The position numbers and the translations under genes are program-made. A DNA stretch of 64,000 bases, taken from contig NZ_CP023396.1 in assembly GCF_008808095.1 (NCBI RefSeq), forward strand, positions 434,001 to 498,000. The letters run 5' to 3'. Of this stretch, positions 51,664 to 60,318 are shown piece after piece. Below the pieces are notes generated by a model that worked only from the letters and a program-made list of their open reading frames with translations, searched no databases and was not told the DNA's origin. Every line of letters begins with the position of its first letter. The stretch's first letter is position 1. This DNA is from Pseudoalteromonas ruthenica (GTDB lineage Bacteria > Pseudomonadota > Gammaproteobacteria > Enterobacterales > Alteromonadaceae).

Positions 51664-51951
51664 ATGTGCGGCGATGGCTTCTTCAAGGTGAAACAGCGCG
51701 AATGCGTGGCGCACTGGGAGCACAATAATAGGATAGGCGATGCCGGCTAAGAGCAGCCATGGCAACATGTGCCAGCCTTCAAAGCGCACCAGCAGCAGAA
51801 ATAGTGGGGTGATCAGCAACAGTTTAATAATATTGAGCATGACTCGGCGCTGCGCTGATAGCCTGTTTAATGAATCCGTTACTATAGCAAGTCGCTCATT
51901 GTGACTGAGCGACTTGAGTTTCGGAATTTGACTGGGAAGAAAGTAAATCAT
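51649..51951 (-). CDS. Small hypothetical membrane protein
   Basis: A 100-residue protein not recognised with confidence. It has two adjacent hydrophobic helices (MLNIIKLLLITPLFLLLV and MLPWLLLAGIAYPIIVLPV) after a basic N-terminal region and ends HKKGN. It overlaps dsbB by 4 bases, so it is expressed with it. The 3' end is embedded in a terminator. It may be one of the alteromonad-specific small membrane families. Confidence 0.7.
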   Translation of the reverse strand: MIYFLPSQIPKLKSLSHNERLAIVTDSLNRLSAQRRVMLNIIKLLLITPLFLLLVRFEGWHMLPWLLLAGIAYPIIVLPVRHAFALFHLEEAIAAHKKGN

Positions 51952-52469
51952 GAAACCTTAGGTTTATAAAAAAAGCTGCTTAAGGTAATGATAATTGCAA
52001 CGACTGCCATCACCGCAAAGATCACTTGCATCCACCCAGGCATTGATAACCCCATAAATTGCCAATCAATGTTGCCACAATCACCGGTAGCAGCAAAAAA
52101 GCTCGGCAGCCACTCGTGTAAAGGCATAAAGCTTGGGAAGTTAGGTTCAAACTCGCATACGAAGGCAAAGGGATCTGTGGTGGTTTGCATCATGATATGT
52201 TCTTTGGCGAGCAAGAAACCCCAAACACTGGCAACCAGCCAACTCGCCAGCGCCACTAGGCGTAAATACATATTTTGTGGATTAATACAGCCTAGTAAGG
52301 CCGCAAATAGCACACCCAAGACTGCTGTACGCTGATAAATGCACATAATGCATGGCGCTAAGTCCATGGCATATTGGAAATACAAAGCAGTTGCTTCGAA
52401 TACGGTGGCAATCACCGCTAACAGTACCCAAGGCGCACGTTGGTGCGATAGCTTACCTAACCAGCTCAT
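51948..52469 (-). CDS. dsbB: DsbB, disulfide bond formation membrane protein
   Basis: A 173-residue four-helix inner-membrane protein that reoxidises DsbA and passes electrons to quinone. The first redox pair is in APCIMCIYQR (CxxC), and the second pair is formed by Cys in FVCEFEPNF and in GDCGN. Length is normal for the family. In E. coli dsbB is near nhaB and fadR. Here fadR lies about 7 kb away, beyond the cassette region. Confidence 0.95.
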   Translation of the reverse strand: MSWLGKLSHQRAPWVLLAVIATVFEATALYFQYAMDLAPCIMCIYQRTAVLGVLFAALLGCINPQNMYLRLVALASWLVASVWGFLLAKEHIMMQTTTDPFAFVCEFEPNFPSFMPLHEWLPSFFAATGDCGNIDWQFMGLSMPGWMQVIFAVMAVVAIIITLSSFFYKPKVS

Positions 52470-52902
52470 AGTTAACTCACATCGTTATTGATGGGCTGAT
52501 TATGCCACGCCCTCGGCGCTATGCAAGCGTCTTTGCGGGCGTAAAGGTAAGCTCATTGGCGTGCCTAAGCACTTAATTTAGCGCCATTTGTGTACAAGCT
52601 AGCGTTGTTAAGTGAACAAAAAAGCTAATGAATCACTCAAAGCGGTAGGCTGGCTTCCGTTTTTGCTTATGAATCAGTGAAAATGAACAAAAAAATTATT
52701 TATTGAATTGATCGAAGAGCTATACACAGTGCGGAGCTAATGCCGATATTGAACGAATCAAAGTCTCGGCTTTCGACTAAATAAGTCCTTAATCTCTGGA
52801 AAGTACTTACAGGAGAGCATAGTATTCTCAGCATCAATTAGTGTTATATTCGATTTGCAAGTGAATGTAATAAGGAGGTTGTATGCGGGGAATTATATCT
52901 AG
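52470..52902. other. 433-base boundary region with an attC-like palindrome
   Basis: No convincing gene. At 52570-52614 there is an imperfect palindrome with ends CACTTAA and GTTAAGTG and the inner arms AGCGCC.../...GCTAGCG. GTTAAGT fits the attC R' consensus GTTRRRY. This may mark the left edge of the cassette array. The AT content rises from here rightward. A short reading frame with a strong ribosome site begins at 52883. Confidence 0.5.
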
Positions 52903-52906
52903 GTGA
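52883..52906 (+). CDS. Seven-codon leader ORF (MRGIISR)
   Basis: An ATG directly preceded by a near-perfect ribosome site (AAGGAGGT, 52872-52879) opens a 7-codon frame. Its TGA overlaps the GTG start of the next gene. This resembles the short ORF-11 that boosts translation of cassette genes at attI1 by coupling. Function is inferred. Confidence 0.45.
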   Translation: MRGIISR

Positions 52907-53211
52907 GCATGAATAGAATCGCAACGTTAGTTGGGTCACTTCGAAAAGCTTATCCGGAAATAGAATCTTGTAAATTCGAACTAATTTTTTCTTTCCCTAC
53001 TGAAGAAGCGGCCAAAGAGTATTTCAGAAAAACCTATCACTGGGAACATCATGATGGGATGATTAAATATCAACTTAACGGTGAATGTTTCTCGGGCTTT
53101 AAGACTGAAATAGAATTAAATACCAACTATATTAAACACTTAACGGGCTGTTATGTAGATTTGGCATCAGAAACCCAAGGTAGCCTTCACCGTTGGAAGC
53201 TATGGATTTGA
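52903..53211 (+). CDS. Hypothetical protein
   Basis: A 102-residue protein not recognised. It is Phe/Glu/Tyr-rich (CKFELIFSFPTEEAAKEYF) with no signal peptide or membrane segment. The GTG at 52903 overlaps the stop of a 7-codon leader with a strong ribosome site; the ATG at 52909 is an alternative and has no own ribosome site. It would be expressed together with the GNAT gene that begins 23 bases after it. Confidence 0.6.
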   Translation: MSMNRIATLVGSLRKAYPEIESCKFELIFSFPTEEAAKEYFRKTYHWEHHDGMIKYQLNGECFSGFKTEIELNTNYIKHLTGCYVDLASETQGSLHRWKLWI

Positions 53212-53234
53212 GCCTTAATAAGAACGAGCACCAA

Positions 53235-53729
53235 ATGGAAATCAAAGTAAGGAAAACTAAAACAACTGACAGTGGCACATTGTGTATGCTGTGGCAGTTT
53301 TACCAATATCACCAAAGTTCATTTGATCAAGAGGATGTAGGTACTGACGGGCGCTTTGATATTGATGAACAATACCTCAATTCCGTTGTTTGCGGTGAAC
53401 AAGAGTGTGCCGCTTATCTAATTTTTGTTTCTGACCAGATTGCAGGCTTTGCCACTGTTGAGACGACCGAGATTCGGGGTAAAGAAATGCCGGAATTGGC
53501 TGATATATTTATCCTCCCTAAATATCGAAAGCAAGGTGTCGGGAAATTTGTCGTTCAACACTTGATGCAAGCTGTGAGCAAACAATGGCATGTAGCAGTT
53601 TATATAAACGACGGCTTGGCGTCGAAGTTTTGGAGTAACTTGTTTACTCAATTAAATGTGGCTCTTGTTGAGAGAGTGGAGCCTGCTGAAACAGAAGGCT
53701 TTCACGAGTTTGTCATTACCAATGCCTAA
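53235..53729 (+). CDS. GNAT-family N-acetyltransferase
   Basis: A 164-residue GNAT protein. The acetyl-CoA loop region is DIFILPKYRKQGVGKFVVQH, where RKQGVG matches the R/Q-x-x-G-x-G/A motif. The upstream strand LIFVSDQIAGFATVET is typical. The substrate is unknown; such enzymes are common integron cassette cargo. The start at 53235 avoids overlap with the previous gene; an upstream frame to 53193 is possible. The stop lies inside GCCTAAC, a consensus attC R'' box. Confidence 0.82.
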   Translation: MEIKVRKTKTTDSGTLCMLWQFYQYHQSSFDQEDVGTDGRFDIDEQYLNSVVCGEQECAAYLIFVSDQIAGFATVETTEIRGKEMPELADIFILPKYRKQGVGKFVVQHLMQAVSKQWHVAVYINDGLASKFWSNLFTQLNVALVERVEPAETEGFHEFVITNA

Positions 53730-53830
53730 CAGAATAAATACGTGAACGACGTTGTAAGCTTGGCTGACACTCGCTTCTCGTTCAAGCTTAAAACGGCTCG
53801 TATCATGGAGCAGAACACACAAGGAAAGTT
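53724..53830 (+). repeat. Candidate attC site A
   Basis: It begins with GCCTAAC, a perfect R'' consensus enclosing the GNAT stop, and ends near GTTATG at the next gene's start. Inside is an inverted pair with arms CGTTGTAAGCTTG and CAAGCTTAAAACG. The outer arms pair poorly, so this is a moderate candidate. Confidence 0.45.
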
Positions 53831-54937
53831 ATGATTAGAACTATCTTGATAATATCGGGGGCTTTTTTTGCCAACGTTTCTATTGGCAAAGAAATTAAAG
53901 ATATATATGAGCTCACAAAACGTTTGGACGATGGTGTACCGCAAATTTTAGAAAAGCACAAAGCTCCCGGCGTTGCTCTGGCATTCGTTAATGGAAGTAG
54001 AGTTGTGGGCTTTCGTTCCTATGGTTTTGCTGACGTTGCGGCTAAAACTGAAATTACTCAAAGGACTTTGTTCAATATAGGCTCTATTTCTAAGCTGGTA
54101 ACTGCTTGGGGAGCAATGCAATTAGTCGCTCAAGGCAAAGTGGATCTCGATACACCAATTAATCAATATCTTAAACGCTGGCAAATTCCCCAATCTGATT
54201 TTGATGTAAAAAAAGTCACACTAAGAAATATTCTGTCCCACACTTCCGGCCTGTCTTTGGGACCTTATACAGGGTGGGAGTCTCGCGACAAGTTATCCTC
54301 TATTGTCGACTCACTAAATGGTAATAACAACGGCGCTGGACCCGTTGAACTTATCCATGCGCCAAATACAAAGTGGTCTTATTCCGGTGGTGGATATTCA
54401 GTGGTACAACTGTTAATTGAAGATGTATCCGGCATGACATTTGAAGCTTATATGCAGAAAAATGTATTCGAACCTCTGAATATGAAGGATTCTACGTTCA
54501 ATATTACTGAGATAGTAATGAGTAAGTCGGCAACACCTTATGATGATACCGGTAAAGTCACGGGTATGGTGTACTTCAATGAACAAGCAGCGGCGGGCTT
54601 ACAAACAACGGCTGTAGATTTAGCTCGCTTCAATATGGCAGTTTTGCGTAATAGCGATGGACATTATAACGGTTCAATTTTGTTGCCAGAAAAGCTCATA
54701 GATCTAATGATTAAGCCAGCTCCAAATACTAACGGGCGCTGGAGCATGAGCTATGTTGTGGACACAGAAAACAACAGTCTCGGATTTGCTGGATTTAATC
54801 GAGGTTGGGTCTCTCTATCACGTTCTGTCACAGACCTAAATTTTGGTTACGTGATATTAAATAATAGTAGTATCGGTGCTGTGAACAATGAAATTGATAG
54901 CCTCATACTTTCTACCGTTAAACAAGAGCACAATTAA
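53831..54937 (+). CDS. Class C beta-lactamase-family serine hydrolase
   Basis: A 368-residue protein with a signal peptide (IRTILIISGAFFANVSIG) and the serine hydrolase motif SISK (Ser85, Lys88). The tyrosine motif is YSGGGYS, instead of the YxN of true AmpC enzymes. The family includes esterases, D-aminopeptidases and penicillin-binding proteins, so antibiotic resistance cannot be inferred. It is the largest typical cassette gene here. Ribosome site AGGAAAG; the ATG overlaps a GTTATG core. Confidence 0.85.
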   Translation: MIRTILIISGAFFANVSIGKEIKDIYELTKRLDDGVPQILEKHKAPGVALAFVNGSRVVGFRSYGFADVAAKTEITQRTLFNIGSISKLVTAWGAMQLVAQGKVDLDTPINQYLKRWQIPQSDFDVKKVTLRNILSHTSGLSLGPYTGWESRDKLSSIVDSLNGNNNGAGPVELIHAPNTKWSYSGGGYSVVQLLIEDVSGMTFEAYMQKNVFEPLNMKDSTFNITEIVMSKSATPYDDTGKVTGMVYFNEQAAAGLQTTAVDLARFNMAVLRNSDGHYNGSILLPEKLIDLMIKPAPNTNGRWSMSYVVDTENNSLGFAGFNRGWVSLSRSVTDLNFGYVILNNSSIGAVNNEIDSLILSTVKQEHN

Positions 54938-55001
54938 ATTACATAAAAAACACTTTCAGTGGATAGGCTGCGGTGCCTGCATGTTATGTGTCGAGGAAGC
55001 T

Positions 55002-55244
55002 ATGAAGCCCAAGAAGCCAACAATCATGGGAATGGCAGAGTTTGAGCCATCAGCGAGGTGTCCTAATTGTACATTGATAATGTATTTGGGAAACAAATGT
55101 CCGCATTATGATTATTTACTGAGCCAGTCAGAACAAAGAGCTCAAAATTTGTTTTGGAGAAAGTCTAGAAACACAGGTTATGTGTATGGCTTTATGTTTT
55201 TCATTATTTTCCTATTTATACTGTCTTGGTTGCTTAGCATGTAG
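55002..55244 (+). CDS. Zinc-ribbon plus transmembrane small protein
   Basis: An 80-residue protein not recognised by name. A short zinc-binding-like pair, CPNC and a second CPHY, sits in the N-terminal half, followed by a C-terminal membrane helix (FMFFIIFLFILSWLLSM). The start at ATG 55002 follows GAGGAA. The frame extends upstream to 54888, through the end of the hydrolase gene and the intergenic region, and that part is not likely to be coding. Confidence 0.62.
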   Translation: MKPKKPTIMGMAEFEPSARCPNCTLIMYLGNKCPHYDYLLSQSEQRAQNLFWRKSRNTGYVYGFMFFIIFLFILSWLLSM

Positions 55245-55341
55245 CCTCAATCAAAGGTGTCTAAGTTTTATGCGGAGCTGTAAATTTAGCCAACTATGTT
55301 TAGTCGATTATAAAGGTGCTTGAAAAACCAAGGTTCAATAT

Positions 55342-55764
55342 ATGTTCTGGAGAAGTTTGTTAATTGGGTTAACAACAGTGTTTGCTTGGCTACCTGCATC
55401 ATTTCTTATGATATTTGCGCTAATCGGCTTGTTTGGTGGCGTTGCAAATATTTTCACTATGCCGATTGGTTTCAGCTTACAATGGATTCTTTGTTCCTTG
55501 GGTGGAATACTTGGCTATGTAGTATTAACCTCTGTGAGTTGGGGTTTCAAGCTCAAGCATAAAGTTCGATTGTTATTTCTTATTTTTGGCTTTTTGTCTC
55601 TAATATTCACTCATTCCTCAGTCATTGACCTTGATGGTGACTTATTCAAATTAGGTGATGGTTGGGTTGAGCTCTATATGCTTTTATGCCCAGCTATATT
55701 TTTAGCTGTTCACATAGTCTTGCACTTGTTTTGGATGTCGCAAGACAATTTAGCAAGTGCATAA
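55342..55764 (+). CDS. Hypothetical multi-span membrane protein
   Basis: A 140-residue protein with four predicted transmembrane helices, for example LIGLTTVFAWLPASFLMIFA and VRLLFLIFGFLSLIFTH, and a final LLCPAIFLAVHIVLHLFW. No family recognised. The ATG at 55342 follows a GGTTCAATAT region with weak ribosome signal. A second overlapping frame from 55320 is noise. An attC-like site follows 14 bases after the stop. Confidence 0.65.
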   Translation: MFWRSLLIGLTTVFAWLPASFLMIFALIGLFGGVANIFTMPIGFSLQWILCSLGGILGYVVLTSVSWGFKLKHKVRLLFLIFGFLSLIFTHSSVIDLDGDLFKLGDGWVELYMLLCPAIFLAVHIVLHLFWMSQDNLASA

Positions 55765-55777
55765 TCTATTAATGGGA

Positions 55778-55848
55778 GTTAAACCCTTGACTAGCGTTTG
55801 TCTTTCGCTCGTTTTAATCATGTGCATGCAGCTATGAACGGGCGTTAC
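55778..55848 (+). repeat. Candidate attC site D
   Basis: A 71-base element. The left arm GTTAAACCCTTGACTAGC (55778-55795) and right arm GCTATGAACGGGCGTTAC (55831-55848) are complementary at 11 of 18 positions. The right end GCGTTAC matches the most frequent attC end in these genomes. Confidence 0.55.
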
Positions 55849-55864
55849 TTTCACAGGGGATGAT

Positions 55865-56317
55865 ATGGAAATCGAAGACTTAATAAGCATTTTACAATCT
55901 GGCAACGAACGTGAGATATCGGATATTTCATATAGCCTGATGAATGTGTCAGACAATACCTTTTTACAAAATCTCGCGGGCAGCCTTGAGTTAATAACGC
56001 CATTGTCTAGTTCTTCTTATTGGTCCTCTCAAGGAAATAAGCACCGCGTGCGTGTATCAATAGATAGAATTACAACGTTTCTCGAGGCTGTGAGAACAAC
56101 GGGCTGCAGGTGCGCGAAATACCTCCAGCTACCTTACTTTGCCCACAGTGAAGCGGATAAAGGCATGATAGAGATAATATTAAATGAGGCAGACCCACAA
56201 ACGAGGAAGTCGAAAATCACCTGTCAATGTACAGCTTGTGCTCAATACTATGTTGCGCATGAGTTCGACGCGGGATTTGGGCGCAGAGCTCAGTGGGAAA
56301 AGCTCGCAAAACCATGA
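55865..56317 (+). CDS. Hypothetical protein with a cysteine-rich C-terminus
   Basis: A 150-residue protein not recognised. The N-terminus is acidic and Leu/Ile-rich (MEIEDLISILQSGNEREISD). The C-terminal third carries GCRCAKY and CQCTACAQYY, five cysteines that could bind zinc, and ends RAQWEKLAKP. It directly follows candidate attC site D. Ribosome site AGGGGATGAT. A zinc-binding role is inference only. Confidence 0.6.
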   Translation: MEIEDLISILQSGNEREISDISYSLMNVSDNTFLQNLAGSLELITPLSSSSYWSSQGNKHRVRVSIDRITTFLEAVRTTGCRCAKYLQLPYFAHSEADKGMIEIILNEADPQTRKSKITCQCTACAQYYVAHEFDAGFGRRAQWEKLAKP

Positions 56318-56411
56318 AAAAGATGCCTTCTACTGTTATTCCAATTTAAGAATCGGCTCGGTTACGGTAGGGTTGTTTTTGAGAATTCATCACGCAAAGA
56401 GGAATACTTAC

Positions 56412-56714
56412 TTGGAAACGGATCTTCAACAAAAATTGACAAATATTTTTAGCACCCGGCTGTTCAAATTTAACGGGCTTCCCGAAAAAGTAATATCAGA
56501 GCTTAATGCATTAATGCTTGAATATGGCGCAGAGCAATTACTGTTAGCCTGCCAAGCATTGCGACCTAAATTTGAACAAAACGCCGACTTCACACGCGGA
56601 AGTAGAGGAAAGTCTGGATTAGGTGGTGAGTTTTATATGGCCGCTGCAATGGAGCTCAAATACCTTCAGGAAGCCATGGTTTATATAAGAAGCAAAACCA
56701 CCGGGGCATCATAA
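56412..56714 (+). CDS. Hypothetical small protein (start uncertain)
   Basis: A 100-residue protein not recognised. From TTG 56412, which follows AAGAGGAA, it reads METDLQQKLTNIFSTRLF and is predicted helical, with EYGAEQLLLACQALRPKF. The same frame is open upstream to an ATG at 56184, but that part overlaps the previous gene and shows no feature. The stop lies inside CATAAC, the left core of the next attC-like site, exactly as for the cassettes at 57954 and 59085. This supports a real cassette gene end. Confidence 0.55.
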   Translation: METDLQQKLTNIFSTRLFKFNGLPEKVISELNALMLEYGAEQLLLACQALRPKFEQNADFTRGSRGKSGLGGEFYMAAAMELKYLQEAMVYIRSKTTGAS

Positions 56715-56768
56715 CCATGTAGTGTGGTGCTCTGCTATAAGGCTGGAGCATAAGCCAATTAGTTATGC
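56710..56768 (+). repeat. attC-like site G
   Basis: A 59-base element from CATAAC to GTTATG with an inner pair TGCTC / GAGCA and a loop TGCTATAAG-type centre. The outer cores are exact complements. It includes the stop codon of the preceding gene. The next cassette starts TTATGC, and GCATAA follows that cassette's gene, as expected. Confidence 0.65.
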
Positions 56769-56786
56769 AATGAAGAAAAGTAAGGG

Positions 56787-57281
56787 ATGACTATGAATGA
56801 ACACTTGGATAAGAAGTTATTAGGATTTATTGAAACGTATAACAAGCTATTATCAACTTTTGACTATGGAGTAGGTGAGTTTCAAAGAGATATTGCCTTA
56901 GGAATGATTTATGTTTTGGTCGACGCTCAGGCTGCTTGTTGGAACTCTCTAGAGGAGTTAAAGCTGCAGCTCGCAATCAATGCGTTCAACTCTGATGAAA
57001 TGCTTAAAAACATTAGAGACGATGTGTCGGACAACACTTCTCTGAGTTTTAATTATTGCTATTCCCCAATTGCTATGAAGGCGTTTGCAGAATTAGGTTA
57101 CCTAAATCTTTCCACGCTTATTTATATACGAGATCGGTTGGCTCATGAAGTTCATAAGCACAGGAATGCTAGCCCAATGGCGGCCTGTATGCTTAACGTT
57201 CAGGGTGATTCTATGAATTGCAGCATTCTTAATGACTGCATTGAAATTATGGAGAAAAGAGTTAACGGAGCGAATGCATAA
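56787..57281 (+). CDS. Hypothetical protein
   Basis: A 164-residue protein not recognised. It is predicted helical and soluble, with MALGMIYVLVDAQAACW-like core (FQRDIALGMIYVLVDAQAAC) and RDRLAHEVHKH, reminiscent of DUF-type helical bundles but without a firm match. The ATG 56787 (or 56793) follows AAGGGATG. The stop TAA is within GCATAA, complementary to the cassette's first bases TTATGC. Confidence 0.62.
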   Translation: MTMNEHLDKKLLGFIETYNKLLSTFDYGVGEFQRDIALGMIYVLVDAQAACWNSLEELKLQLAINAFNSDEMLKNIRDDVSDNTSLSFNYCYSPIAMKAFAELGYLNLSTLIYIRDRLAHEVHKHRNASPMAACMLNVQGDSMNCSILNDCIEIMEKRVNGANA

Positions 57282-57657
57282 ATAGTGCTTGCCATCAAAG
57301 TAGATTCAAGTATGGCCGCATCCATATTATTTATTAACTGCGTGGAAGGTGATATTCGCGCTCAAAGCAAGTCTAAAAATTGAAGCAGCGGTATGTTGGT
57401 GGCGAATATGGTGACTTTGAAAATATGCAAACACTGTGTATTAAAACAGTTTCAGCGCAGTCGCTCACATAGTCAAGGAAACGGCCCAATTGCAAGCTTT
57501 TGTCGCAAGATAAAAACGAGAAATTGCTATTTTTAATAATACTAGCAATGAGTTAACTAGTCTGTTAAGAATATATCATTCAGAAAAGTGAGCGGCAGCT
57601 TAGTAGAAAAACGCGCGATTCGCTCGCTATAAACATGTTATAAACCTAAGGGAAGTA
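57282..57657. other. 376-base gene-poor part of the cassette array
   Basis: No supported ORF. A degenerate attC may span 57276-57339 (ATAAATA near both ends), followed by a possible geneless cassette that begins TTAACT (57334) and ends with AGTTAAC (57551-57557). A separate perfect 7-bp pair ATTGCTA / TAGCAAT lies near 57521-57550. These small matches could be chance. Confidence 0.4.
57552..57643 (+). repeat. Candidate attC site before the 57658 gene
   Basis: It runs from GTTAAC to GTTATAA, with an inner pair AGTGAGCG / CGCTCGCT (one mismatch). The last core TTATAA is the exact complement of the R'' box TTATAAC at the end of the following cassette, which supports the right border. Confidence 0.55.
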
Positions 57658-57954
57658 ATGGTATTTATCATCCTGTTTGGGGTAGTAGCGATTAGCTTTA
57701 TTGTGTTTAGCATTCAGATGGAAGCATACAAAGAAGCTGCGCATAAAGGTACAGAAGAACGGAAAAATAGGCTAGTTGAATACCTAAGCTACCAAGATCA
57801 GTATTGGGGTATGTTGTTTGGTAACCCTAAAAATTTCCCCCTGTACCATGAAGGTTTAGACAGTCATATTAAAAGGGTACGTATTTCATTGTTCGTAGCA
57901 TCAGGATCGTTTTTTGGCTTATTCATATATATCATTGTTGCAAACGGCTTATAA
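57658..57954 (+). CDS. Hypothetical two-helix membrane protein
   Basis: A 98-residue protein not recognised. An N-terminal helix (VFIILFGVVAISFIVFSI), a charged central region (EAAHKGTEERKNRLVEYL) and a C-terminal helix (LFVASGSFFGLFIYIIVANGL) suggest two transmembrane spans. GGGAAG precedes the ATG. It is the only gene of a complete, well-delimited cassette (about 57638-58042), and its stop is part of the attC R'' box. Confidence 0.68.
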   Translation: MVFIILFGVVAISFIVFSIQMEAYKEAAHKGTEERKNRLVEYLSYQDQYWGMLFGNPKNFPLYHEGLDSHIKRVRISLFVASGSFFGLFIYIIVANGL

Positions 57955-58046
57955 CAAGTTGCTAAAAAGGACGCAAAACGCTCGGCTTGCGTTCATTCGT
58001 CGCTAATTACAGCCAAGCATTTTTGCGCCCATTAGTAAGGCGTTAA
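57951..58046 (+). repeat. attC site E (strong)
   Basis: A 95-base imperfect hairpin. The left arm beginning TAACAAGTTGCTAAAAAGGA and the reverse complement of the right arm, TAACGCCTTACTAATGGGCG, agree through most of 34 positions, and both continue CGCAAAA..GC. The cassette gene's TAA stop is within the left core. The right end reads GGCGTTA. Its R'' box TTATAAC is the complement of the cassette start. Confidence 0.88.
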
Positions 58047-58059
58047 GAGGCAAGAATAG

Positions 58060-59085
58060 TTGGTGCAACAATCACAGATTATGGAAGATAAGATTATTTC
58101 AGCAGTGAAAACTTTTGCTACCTCGATAAATTCAGGTGGCAAAGTAGTCGCTGATATGTCTGAACTAATTGAAGTTACTTCTCAGTTGCCTCTTTCTAGT
58201 TTTGACTACTGGGAGCGAATTATTCGTTCAGAATTTTCTATAGCTATGAGGGAGTCTATTCCCCCTAAATGGAAGGTGTGGTCAAAACCCAAGGAATTGG
58301 TAACTTGGCTTGATCTTATTAGCTGGGATGGTTACAAACGAGAAAAAGCACTTCGAGCACTATCTGGGTCTGCGCCAAATACATTCTTTTTTTCTCTTGC
58401 CGTTCGTAGACTCAACGATTGGGTTCCCCAAGTTCGTAAAGCAGCGAGGGAAACGCTGCCAGAGATATCGAGGTCGACTAATCCTGAATGTGTAGTAGAG
58501 GCATTATGCGTCGCGCTCTCCAATTGGAACTCTTGGGGTAGAATAGAAGAAGCAGATGAAGAGGTTCTTTTTAAAATCATTTCTGAAAAGGAGATAGCAA
58601 AGTCTCTGCGGTCTAAGTTGGTTTTTTCTACTTCAGGACCTATGCCATCACTCTTTTCACAGCTTGGCCGCACTCCGATACTCGATGGGAAAATTGAAGA
58701 AATAGCTAAATCCGCGATTCAGCCTTCGGTTCGAGCTGAGGCATACCGCAGCTTATTTGAAGGGCGGATTACTTGGATCGAAGGCCGAAAATGGGTGTGG
58801 ATTGATATAAGGTACTGCGAAGGCAGGCTAAAGCCTATCGTTGGTGAGCGGAAATTAGAAGTTGAAACTCCACTACTAGATTTACTAGAAAGATCATCTG
58901 AAGATCGTTCATCTATTGTTAGGCGCGTTTCAGCGGAGATTTTAATAAGAGAGTTGGGCAATCCGGGTATTAAAGCCAGAGAATTTGCCGAACGCTTTGC
59001 TTCAGATAGCTCACTCGCTGTATCTGAAAGGGGTGAGTATGTATTAAAAAAATTAGATGAGGCAGAGCGTGACAATGGCTCTTAA
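58060..59085 (+). CDS. Hypothetical HEAT-like repeat protein
   Basis: A 341-residue protein not firmly recognised. Repeated helical pairs such as RRLNDWVPQVRKAARETLPE and SSIVRRVSAEILIRELGNPG resemble HEAT/ARM repeats used in protein-protein interaction. No catalytic motif or membrane segment is seen. The start is TTG 58060 after GAGG, or the ATG at 58081. It is unusually long for a cassette gene. Its stop TAA is inside TCTTAAC, the exact complement of the cassette start GTTAAGA. Confidence 0.7.
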   Translation: MVQQSQIMEDKIISAVKTFATSINSGGKVVADMSELIEVTSQLPLSSFDYWERIIRSEFSIAMRESIPPKWKVWSKPKELVTWLDLISWDGYKREKALRALSGSAPNTFFFSLAVRRLNDWVPQVRKAARETLPEISRSTNPECVVEALCVALSNWNSWGRIEEADEEVLFKIISEKEIAKSLRSKLVFSTSGPMPSLFSQLGRTPILDGKIEEIAKSAIQPSVRAEAYRSLFEGRITWIEGRKWVWIDIRYCEGRLKPIVGERKLEVETPLLDLLERSSEDRSSIVRRVSAEILIRELGNPGIKAREFAERFASDSSLAVSERGEYVLKKLDEAERDNGS

Positions 59086-59150
59086 CAAGTGCATGTTGTT
59101 GGACTGGTTTTCCGCTGCGGCTCCAAACCAGCCGCAAGTGCGGGCGTTAC
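59080..59150 (+). repeat. attC site (strong), end of the HEAT-like cassette
   Basis: A 71-base element. It starts TCTTAACAAGTGC and ends GTGCGGGCGTTAC, with the internal pair CTGGTTTTCCGCTGCGG / the complement of GGCTCCAAACCAG-type right arm. It shares the TAACAAGT start with site E. It is the last attC recognised before fadR. Confidence 0.87.
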
Positions 59151-59604
59151 CAAATAAATACTCTAACTGGTTTCTGTCCAAAAACGAGTTAGATTCAATG
59201 TCCGTTCTTATGGCTCTATTTAATCTTTGCTGGAGTAGCTCAAAGGTTCAAATTGATACACAAGTAGCTATCAAACTTAGCGAAGCCTACTTGTTGAGGT
59301 AGAGCAAGGTATAGTGGTCTAACTATAAATTGATTTACTTCTTGCCTCTCCCCCCACCCTGAAACAATGAGGCTTAAAAGCTTATTGCTAAATTTGTCAC
59401 TTAAGCTTCAAAGATAAATGGGTCTTCGCTAATCAAGCCCTCTTCATAGGAGTGGTTAGAGTCTCACACCGTGTAACAATCCCACCTTTGCTGTGTATGA
59501 CCAAAACTGTGACTGGGCGAGTGTGCTTGTTAGTTGCTTCGCATCTGGTACAATCAGTATGTTAAGATCAATAATAATATTTTTAGTAGTGAAGTGGACG
59601 TTAG
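59151..59604. other. 454-base region between the cassette array and fadR
   Basis: No convincing gene. A frame ending at 59302 continues out of the attC and has only a short in-frame ATG-started part (59201, 34 codons). Upstream of fadR, ATCTGGTACAATCAGTA (59543-59559) shares 11 of 16 positions with the FadR consensus and could be an autoregulatory site, weakly. The fadR promoter must lie here. Confidence 0.5.
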
Positions 59605-60318
59605 ATGAGAATATTCAAAGCCAAAAGCCCAGCTGGATTTGCTGAGGAGTACATAGTTGAGTCCATCTGGAACGGCGAGTTTCCGCCTGGCTCAATTCTT
59701 CCAGCTGAGCGTGAGCTATCGGAACTGATTGGCGTCACTCGCACTACCTTGCGTGAGGTATTACAACGCCTAGCCCGCGATGGCTGGCTGACTATTCAAC
59801 ACGGTAAGCCGACGCGCGTGAACAACTTTTGGGAAACCTCAGGGTTGAACATTCTTGAGACCTTGGCCCGTCTTGATGAAGACAAAATGCCAGAGCTGAC
59901 CGACCAGCTGCTTTCTGCACGTACGAACATCAGCGCCATTTACATGCGCGCAGCGATTAAGATAGACCCTGAACGTGTAAAAGAAATTGTTGCAGATAGA
60001 GAAACTGTAGAAGACACAGCGCAGGCCTTCGCCGATTATGATTACCTTGTCCATCACCAGTTAGCTGGGGCAGGGAACAATAAAATCTATGTATTGATTT
60101 TAAATGGCTTTAAAGGTTTTTACTCTAAAATTGGCTGCCACTATTTCTCTGACCCGCGTACTCGAGAGCTGGCGCGTCAGTTCTATTCAGACCTAGCCAA
60201 GCTTGCCGAGCAGCAAGACCACGATGGCGCAATCGCCCTGATGCGTCGCTACGGCCATAAGAGTGGCCAAATATGGCAAGAGATTCGTGGCAATATGCCC
60301 GAAGATATTATGGATTAA
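59605..60318 (+). CDS. fadR: FadR, fatty acid-responsive GntR-family regulator
   Basis: A 237-residue FadR. The winged helix contains [20 protein letters not shown] and the wing segment [18 protein letters not shown], virtually as in E. coli. The C-terminal acyl-CoA-binding domain ends [10 protein letters not shown]. It represses beta-oxidation genes and activates unsaturated fatty acid synthesis; long-chain acyl-CoA releases it. A matching operator lies before fadI in this window. The ATG follows a weak GGAC region. Confidence 0.97.

Follow-up and report, generated by a model that had tools for sequence, protein, structure and literature searches.

An attI-headed cassette array between dsbB and fadR in Pseudoalteromonas, probably one of many platforms served in trans by a distant integrase

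We analysed a 64,000-nucleotide stretch of Pseudoalteromonas ruthenica DNA (the window; C1:434001-498000 of a two-contig, 4.12-Mb genome labelled G000 here), in which two gene cassettes stand between dsbB and fadR and have no integron integrase gene (intI) beside them. The cassettes follow an attI recombination site that is preceded by the promoter region of a lost intI, and heads of this kind recur through the genome and the genus. The reading that we favour, and consider probable, is that these heads are scattered attI platforms on which an integrase encoded at another locus acts in trans, the window array being one such platform. Integron heads would have spread through Pseudoalteromonas genomes, and most would have lost intI while keeping the promoter region and attI. 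The integrase of the one complete integron would then act in trans on the scattered attI sites, and cassettes would still be inserted at, and excised from, some of the intI-less heads.

Cassettes and integron head in the window

The features of the array and its flanks are as follows, in window coordinates.

51951..52469, minus strand: dsbB, left chromosomal flank (Pfam DsbB, E 3.3e-43)
57413..57637, plus strand: integron head of type B, intI promoter region and attI, with the crossover at G57637^T57638; intI coding sequence gone
57434..57449, no strand assigned: predicted LexA-type box CTGTGTATTAAAACAG of the lost intI promoter (pattern match)
57638..58042, plus strand: gene cassette 1, open reading frame (ORF) 57658-57954, 98 aa
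57949..58048, plus strand: attC 1 (covariance model, 86.5 bits, E 3.5e-19)
58043..59146, plus strand: gene cassette 2, ORF 58060-59085, 341 aa
59080..59152, plus strand: attC 2, array end (covariance model, 30.3 bits, E 4.8e-5)
59161..59604, no strand assigned: right chromosomal flank up to fadR (59161-59558 is 75% identical to the fadR-upstream region of genome G071)
59605..60318, plus strand: fadR (Pfam FadR_C, E 4.1e-71)

The head was identified by comparison with other genomes (G numbers) and loci (L numbers) of the genus. Window positions 57415-57642 are 91% identical over 228 bp to L062:7865-8092, which lies upstream of the intact intI of G094. Positions 57415-57666 are 88% identical to the corresponding region of G011, and 57434-57642 are 87% identical to remnant B (L008), a second, decayed integron of the same genome. 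In 25 aligned head copies the similarity ends sharply at the crossover G^TT, after which the sequence is unrelated; two copies read G^TC. As we read the head alignments, the left limit of the similarity falls immediately outside the presumed start codon of intI, which means that the coding sequence of this gene is missing. A box of the CTGTGTATTAAAACAG pattern is also present in the heads of G094, G038, and remnant B. The original prediction had described a CALIN-like array (cluster of attC sites lacking an integron integrase). Cassettes without a local intI do lie between dsbB and fadR, with at least two attCs by covariance model and intI not nearby, and the part that was missed is the head at 57413-57637. 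Of the marks of a complete integron, attI and a LexA-type box are present and an adjoining intI is absent. Because attI is preceded here by the promoter region of intI, LexA-type box included, the locus is a decapitated integron platform rather than a bare CALIN or cassettes stranded at a random place.

Head copies without intI are no more decayed than copies with it. Over the last 25 columns, at the attI end, the consensus share is 0.91 in 38 intI-less copies and 0.91 in 20 copies with intI; in the other bins it ranges from 0.79 to 0.92 and from 0.61 to 0.94, respectively. The equal shares show no special constraint at the attI end in copies that lack intI, a possibility that we had considered.

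Sites of attC type were sought with a plain duplex-energy scan, dropped because it returned far too many candidates, also outside arrays, then with a stricter fold filter (3 sites in window positions 1-50000), and finally with a covariance model (R1) trained on 30 attCs from other loci and none from the window. Two sites score above threshold, at the hairpins originally predicted at 57951-58046 and 59080-59150, and the sole further match at E<=10 in the 64 kb is a degenerate site at 55748-55850. The first attC is 88% identical to one attC of the resident complete integron. Cassette 1 begins TTATAA after attI and its R'' box reads TTATAAC; cassette 2 begins TTAAGA and its R'' reads TCTTAAC. Each R'' is thus the exact complement of its own cassette's start, and both ORF stops (57952-57954 and 59083-59085) fall within R'', two properties that the original prediction had recognized correctly. 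Among 17 testable cassettes from 11 chosen arrays of this genome (cassette 2 included, cassette 1 not), R'' matches the cassette's own start at 4/4 positions in 13, against 2 of 67 comparisons with the starts of other cassettes; the rule discriminates. The single-stranded DNA folding z-scores of the two attCs are -1.54 and -1.56; folding energy by itself does not prove them. Neither cassette ORF has a Pfam or PADLOC match at E<=0.01, and the window has no Rfam match at the gathering threshold. Cassette 2 has DNA homologues elsewhere (85% in G078 and 83% in G023), and the loci concerned, L077 and L078, carry attCs.

One integrase and many heads in the genome and the genus

That no intI is visible, as originally stated, holds for the window, where three IntI proteins give no tblastn match at E<=1; the genome, in contrast, does hold one. 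A genome-wide profile search found a single IntI above the TIGR02249 cut-off (C1:770481-771425, 446 bits), about 277 kb from the window. It belongs to resident integron A (C1:770-779 kb), which carries its own array downstream of intI. Two further IntI-like fragments lie at C1:1980497 and C1:1151130. The genome has at least 46 attCs at E<=0.1 in about 16 clusters (our grouping) on both contigs; this is a lower bound because 150 of 1789 candidates were scored, and window attC 2 is missing from the resulting list. Comparison of the 4.5-kb segments that precede the first attC of the clusters showed at least 100 nt of head in common with another cluster for 13 of the 16, against 0 of 26 control segments. 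Fourteen clusters have no complete or partial intI, and 11 of these 14 have a common head of at least 100 nt. Clusters c3102 and d57 have no common head, and c1306 has none at >=100 nt and 37-44 nt in common with two type-D heads.

The heads of this genome fall into four families, A to D. Type A is the attI of the complete integron and recurs at four further clusters and at a fifth site, L266. Type B occurs on contig 2 as well as in remnant B and the window array. For each of types C and D there are three clusters, the D head of c1306 being assigned by a short match only. In head regions, tblastn (E<=1e-3) detects IntI sequence only at integron A and remnant B, whose intI is a truncated, stop-bearing pseudogene. 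Types C and D end in ..TG^TTA before the cassettes of this genome, and by analogy they would also be attI sites. A search of the other 107 genomes with type D gave nothing at E<=1e-10.

G000:C2:420953-421223, C2:631734-632002, C1:1310695-1310731: sites of head family D, found only in this genome among 108

Of 108 genomes, 38 contain matches to the type-B head, 90 in total at E<=1e-5. We listed 67 places and examined 65, leaving weaker pieces aside. The 65 loci hold 67 heads, 66 of them distinct (L122_117 and L124_4502 are the same). By tblastn at E<=0.01 with two IntI queries, 47 of the 67 (46 distinct) have no IntI within 1.7 kb, 12 have a partial one, and 8 have nearly the whole protein; for this last class the criterion was the span of residues, and some of its members have stops or gaps (e.g. 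L043), and L107, counted as intI-less, has a short N-terminal remnant with another query. The attCs within 2.5 kb downstream of type-B heads number 100 in sense and 0 in antisense orientation; the training set of the covariance model includes three of these 100 (two at L062, one at L065) as well as L009:18962. Within 1.8 kb upstream there are 14 sense and 1 antisense. Where an intI-less type-B head has at least 1.5 kb of downstream sequence, an attC follows in 30 of 43 cases. At L122/L124 (G073 contig 44) two same-strand heads stand in tandem, separated by attCs; intI accompanies the first head but not the second. At L109 and L154 an identical GTTGAACTAAGCCGC sequence right after the crossover is a candidate for something other than a cassette, as it resembles the end of a tRNA gene.

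For the type-A head, 42 of 108 genomes have a match with E<=1e-10, many over the first ~60 nt only. For all 19 matches in G000, G094, and G011, IntI lies within 1.5 kb only at the resident integron, and the same integron is the only one of 25 examined type-A loci with IntI, loci known to lie beside intI not having been chosen. Twenty chosen type-A loci all have downstream attCs (32 sense, 0 antisense). We selected these 20 ourselves, and with the earlier loci the set covers G000 completely, as it does G094 and G011; the selection omitted one match beside intI and one of 37 nt in G052, and other type-A matches adjoin intI genes, for example in G083 contig 57 and G095 contig 2. More broadly, attCs at E<=1e-4 are present in 30 of 30 sampled genomes, 4 to 62 in each. 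Six attC-bearing genomes (G001, G003, G004, G006, G025, and G027) have no IntI at E<=1e-60, many of the genomes being drafts in which contig breaks may hide intI.

Orthologous heads in different species, identified by their flanks, allow the content behind the same attI to be compared. Ten pairs without an adjacent complete intI differ in downstream content, six of type B and four of type A. They come from five genome pairs (four from G038/G086, three from G094/G011, and one each from G002/G061, G057/G100, and G052/G011); the weaker pairs L138/L140, L151/L154, and L262/L263 were left out of the count. The type-B pairs are L101/L106, L102/L108, L100/L107, L130/L147, L136/L141, and L142/L145, and in all six the left flanks are 88-96% identical and the sequence straight after the crossover is unrelated. 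In L100/L107, L136/L141, and L142/L145 the right flank is back at 94% after the differing stretches. At L101/L106 both members hold IntI residues 1-65 only, the left flank is 94% identical over 1802 nt, and nothing downstream can be aligned. At L102, L130, and L142 no attC scores above threshold downstream, so the content there is not proved to be cassettes; the sequence to the right of L130 extends for only 560 bp. The type-A pairs (L251/L254, L258/L260, L253/L261, and L264/L265) have right flanks that resume at 87-96%, and the left flanks of L253/L261 and L264/L265 are broken by other insertions. At L264/L265 a single cassette occupies the position that a different one holds in the sister genome: homology stops at the attI crossover and returns at the attC R' crossover, continuing at 93% over 2979 nt. 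G094 and G011 each have a single detected IntI (E<=1e-60), and it sits with a type-B head; cassette content nevertheless differs between their type-A heads. This suggests that one integrase can use both attI types, unless another has been lost.

The head module itself may move. At L142 and L145, one site in two genomes, the head lies directly behind an attC, in a cassette-like position. It is unproven that the head moves in the manner of a cassette whose left end is G^TT, as GTT precedes the common TGCCCCAAG stretch only at some ends. The head has no match among the phage sequences searched and matches in five plasmid-collection records, all from Pseudoalteromonas and four of them >800 kb. On a 244-kb mobilizable (MOBH) plasmid of P. 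donghaensis (unnamed2; L248, 1565-5195), an integron has an IS1595-family transposase, an ArsR-type regulator, and a permease between intI and attI, an arrangement by which attI might become detached from intI and heads might pass from cell to cell. On plasmid pTHAF3_a of Pseudoalteromonas sp. THAF3 (L249, 5001-7545), a head match has no annotated intI near it and is immediately followed by AAA ATPase and DUF4435 genes, a pair that we take to resemble the PARIS anti-phage system.

Upstream gene block and the dsbB-fadR interval

Most of the 7,135-bp dsbB-to-fadR gap lies on the other side of attI from the cassettes.

52529..57412, plus strand: block of apparently cassette-derived genes, no attC above threshold
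52909-53211, plus strand: ORF
53193-53729, plus strand: GNAT acetyltransferase (Pfam)
53831-54937, plus strand: beta-lactamase-family protein (Pfam PF00144)
54993-55244, 55342-55764, and 55865-56317, plus strand: ORFs
55748..55850, plus strand: degenerate attC (covariance model, 15 bits, E 0.35)
56412-56714 and 56787-57281, plus strand: ORFs

Homology to the dsbB flank of G052 stops at 52528. Several of the genes beyond it match other Pseudoalteromonas genomes singly, with sharp ends near 52898, 53228, 53731, 53815, and 54945, and the GNAT homologue in G002 has an attC flush on both sides. Given these single-gene homologies with sharp ends and the attC-flanked GNAT gene, the genes at 52909-57281 look like an older cassette block with decayed attCs. 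The original prediction had the array extend over 52570..59150; its intact part is 57638-59146, and the genes at 52909-57281 lie upstream of attI, with no attC that reaches threshold. They sit on the wrong side of attI, and our model leaves their placement unexplained. We looked for an intI relic beside dsbB (52470-52960), where weak tblastn pieces reach a best E of 0.015 when that segment alone is searched. Of 200 shuffles, however, 12 reached the level of the DNA alignment to G086, 20 that to G038, 67 that to the genome's own intI, 85 that to G094, and 156 that to G071, and the relic was not accepted.

Both dsbB and fadR are present in 99 of 99 sampled genus genomes. They lie on one contig within 21 kb of each other in 85, with gaps from 178 bp to 20.7 kb (<800 bp in 55 and >1.9 kb in 30). 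Relatives therefore differ at this interval instead of sharing one gene set: among the matches listed for 108 genus genomes, with two candidates scored per genome, none outside G000 exceeds about 1.1 kb of the 7.1-kb interval. As originally noted, nhaB is absent from the window interval, and this is so in most relatives. In 6 of 40 intervals compared there is a minus-strand gene from a single cluster; Pfam identifies its G082 member as NhaB, which gives the E. coli-like order dsbB-NhaB-fadR. Integrons have also occupied the site elsewhere. G038 has an intact IntI beside dsbB, G086 has an IntI aligned over residues 1-314 with gaps and reported stops, and G071 has an IntI fragment. As the G071 head is of type A and those of G038, G086, and the window are of type B, the site has hosted more than one kind of integron. 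The gap takes other insertions too: in G084 (L044-L045) it measures 20.7 kb and holds a large island with a 2531-aa reading frame, in which the fold filter found no attC.

Alternative explanations and known systems

Several observations weigh against service in trans. Among the 47 intI-less type-B heads, 17 have no attC within 2.5 kb downstream, although 4 of the 17 have <1.5 kb of sequence there. The resident intact IntI pairs with a type-A attI and the window attI is of type B, whose IntI partner in this genome is the truncated pseudogene of remnant B. The resident intI promoter has no exact CTG-N10-CAG box, and SOS control is unproved. The decayed attCs upstream show that much of the window locus is not exchanging, and an intI-less type-B head at dsbB-fadR was found in no other of the genomes compared. 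DNA uptake followed by homologous recombination could also yield different cassettes at one site. Service in trans is something that we infer for the heads overall and do not regard as established for the window site, where recognition of attI by the resident IntI and current exchange are likewise inferred; the window site is the least certain case because its attI is of type B and the intact integrase comes from a type-A head without an exact LexA-type box. A stronger form, a distributed integron whose promoter-attI module has multiplied to about a dozen sites on both chromosomes, all of them active docks for one integrase in trans, has in our judgement somewhat less than an even chance.

If the window array were instead a fossil, a complete integron would have lost intI with its cassettes frozen ever since, and the other headed arrays likewise, their differences predating the loss. 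The decayed upstream attCs and the broken intI of remnant B fit such a history, and in L114/L116 and L119/L121 one species keeps more intI than the other, so loss of intI at a standing site also occurs. However, pairs with an identical intI remnant or none (L101/L106, L136/L141, L251/L254, L258/L260, and L264/L265) differ after attI, and the cassette boundaries and R'' of the window match exactly; we regard this history as rather unlikely. Replacement of whole arrays at intI-less heads by homologous recombination after DNA uptake, without an integrase in trans, is less likely again. The flanks of the compared sites are 88-97% identical and could recombine, but in the pairs shown homology breaks off at the attI crossover, and at the far end of L264/L265 it does so at the attC R', positions that site-specific recombination predicts; imported arrays would also still need IntI to assemble them somewhere. 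A plain CALIN, formed by insertion at a secondary genomic attG site unrelated to attI, would account for cassettes without intI between core genes, and attG insertion is described in PMC12901181. It would leave a left junction without attI, whereas a promoter-attI head of about 225 bp stands directly before cassette 1 and the dsbB-fadR site carries intI or its remnants in G038, G086, and G071. We consider this origin highly improbable.

Descriptions of integrons place a single attI near intI, and intI-less arrays are mostly regarded as degraded. Were the heads served in trans, one integrase would give a genome many docks and place cassettes in different genomic contexts, and CALIN counts would hide live platforms, attI not being searched for. 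Whether an intI-less array is dead or served in trans thereby becomes directly testable. IntegronFinder detects no attI outside class 1 integrons, according to PMC9024848. According to PMC12444791, a functional IntI can mobilise CALINs in trans, and in Xanthomonas, in contrast to the heads described here, strains with a common dead intI usually carry identical arrays. In class 1 experiments a plasmid-supplied integrase recombines attI-derived sites (PMC12901181). Dispersed attI heads in Pseudoalteromonas are not reported in the available text of the literature that we searched, which did not cover subscription papers or preprints.

The window array resembles a CALIN in the IntegronFinder sense, as an attC array without a local intI, and differs in starting with attI and an intI promoter region, in heads that recur through the genome and the genus. 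With a sedentary chromosomal integron such as resident integron A it has attI, cassettes, and the attC family in common, and lacks intI. As described in PMC9892861, the Shewanella prophage M16-3 carries a complete integron and a CALIN that each begin with a Shewanella-type attI, and so likewise holds an attI-headed, intI-less array beside a complete integron; that is one case in one prophage, whereas Pseudoalteromonas has dozens of heads across the genus with signs of turnover. In the Delta-attI cassettes of class 1 and 2 integrons, as described in PMC12901181, attI also stands apart from intI and is recombined by an integrase on another plasmid. There, attI pieces replace attC at the end of a cassette, whereas in Pseudoalteromonas heads of about 200 bp stand before the arrays.

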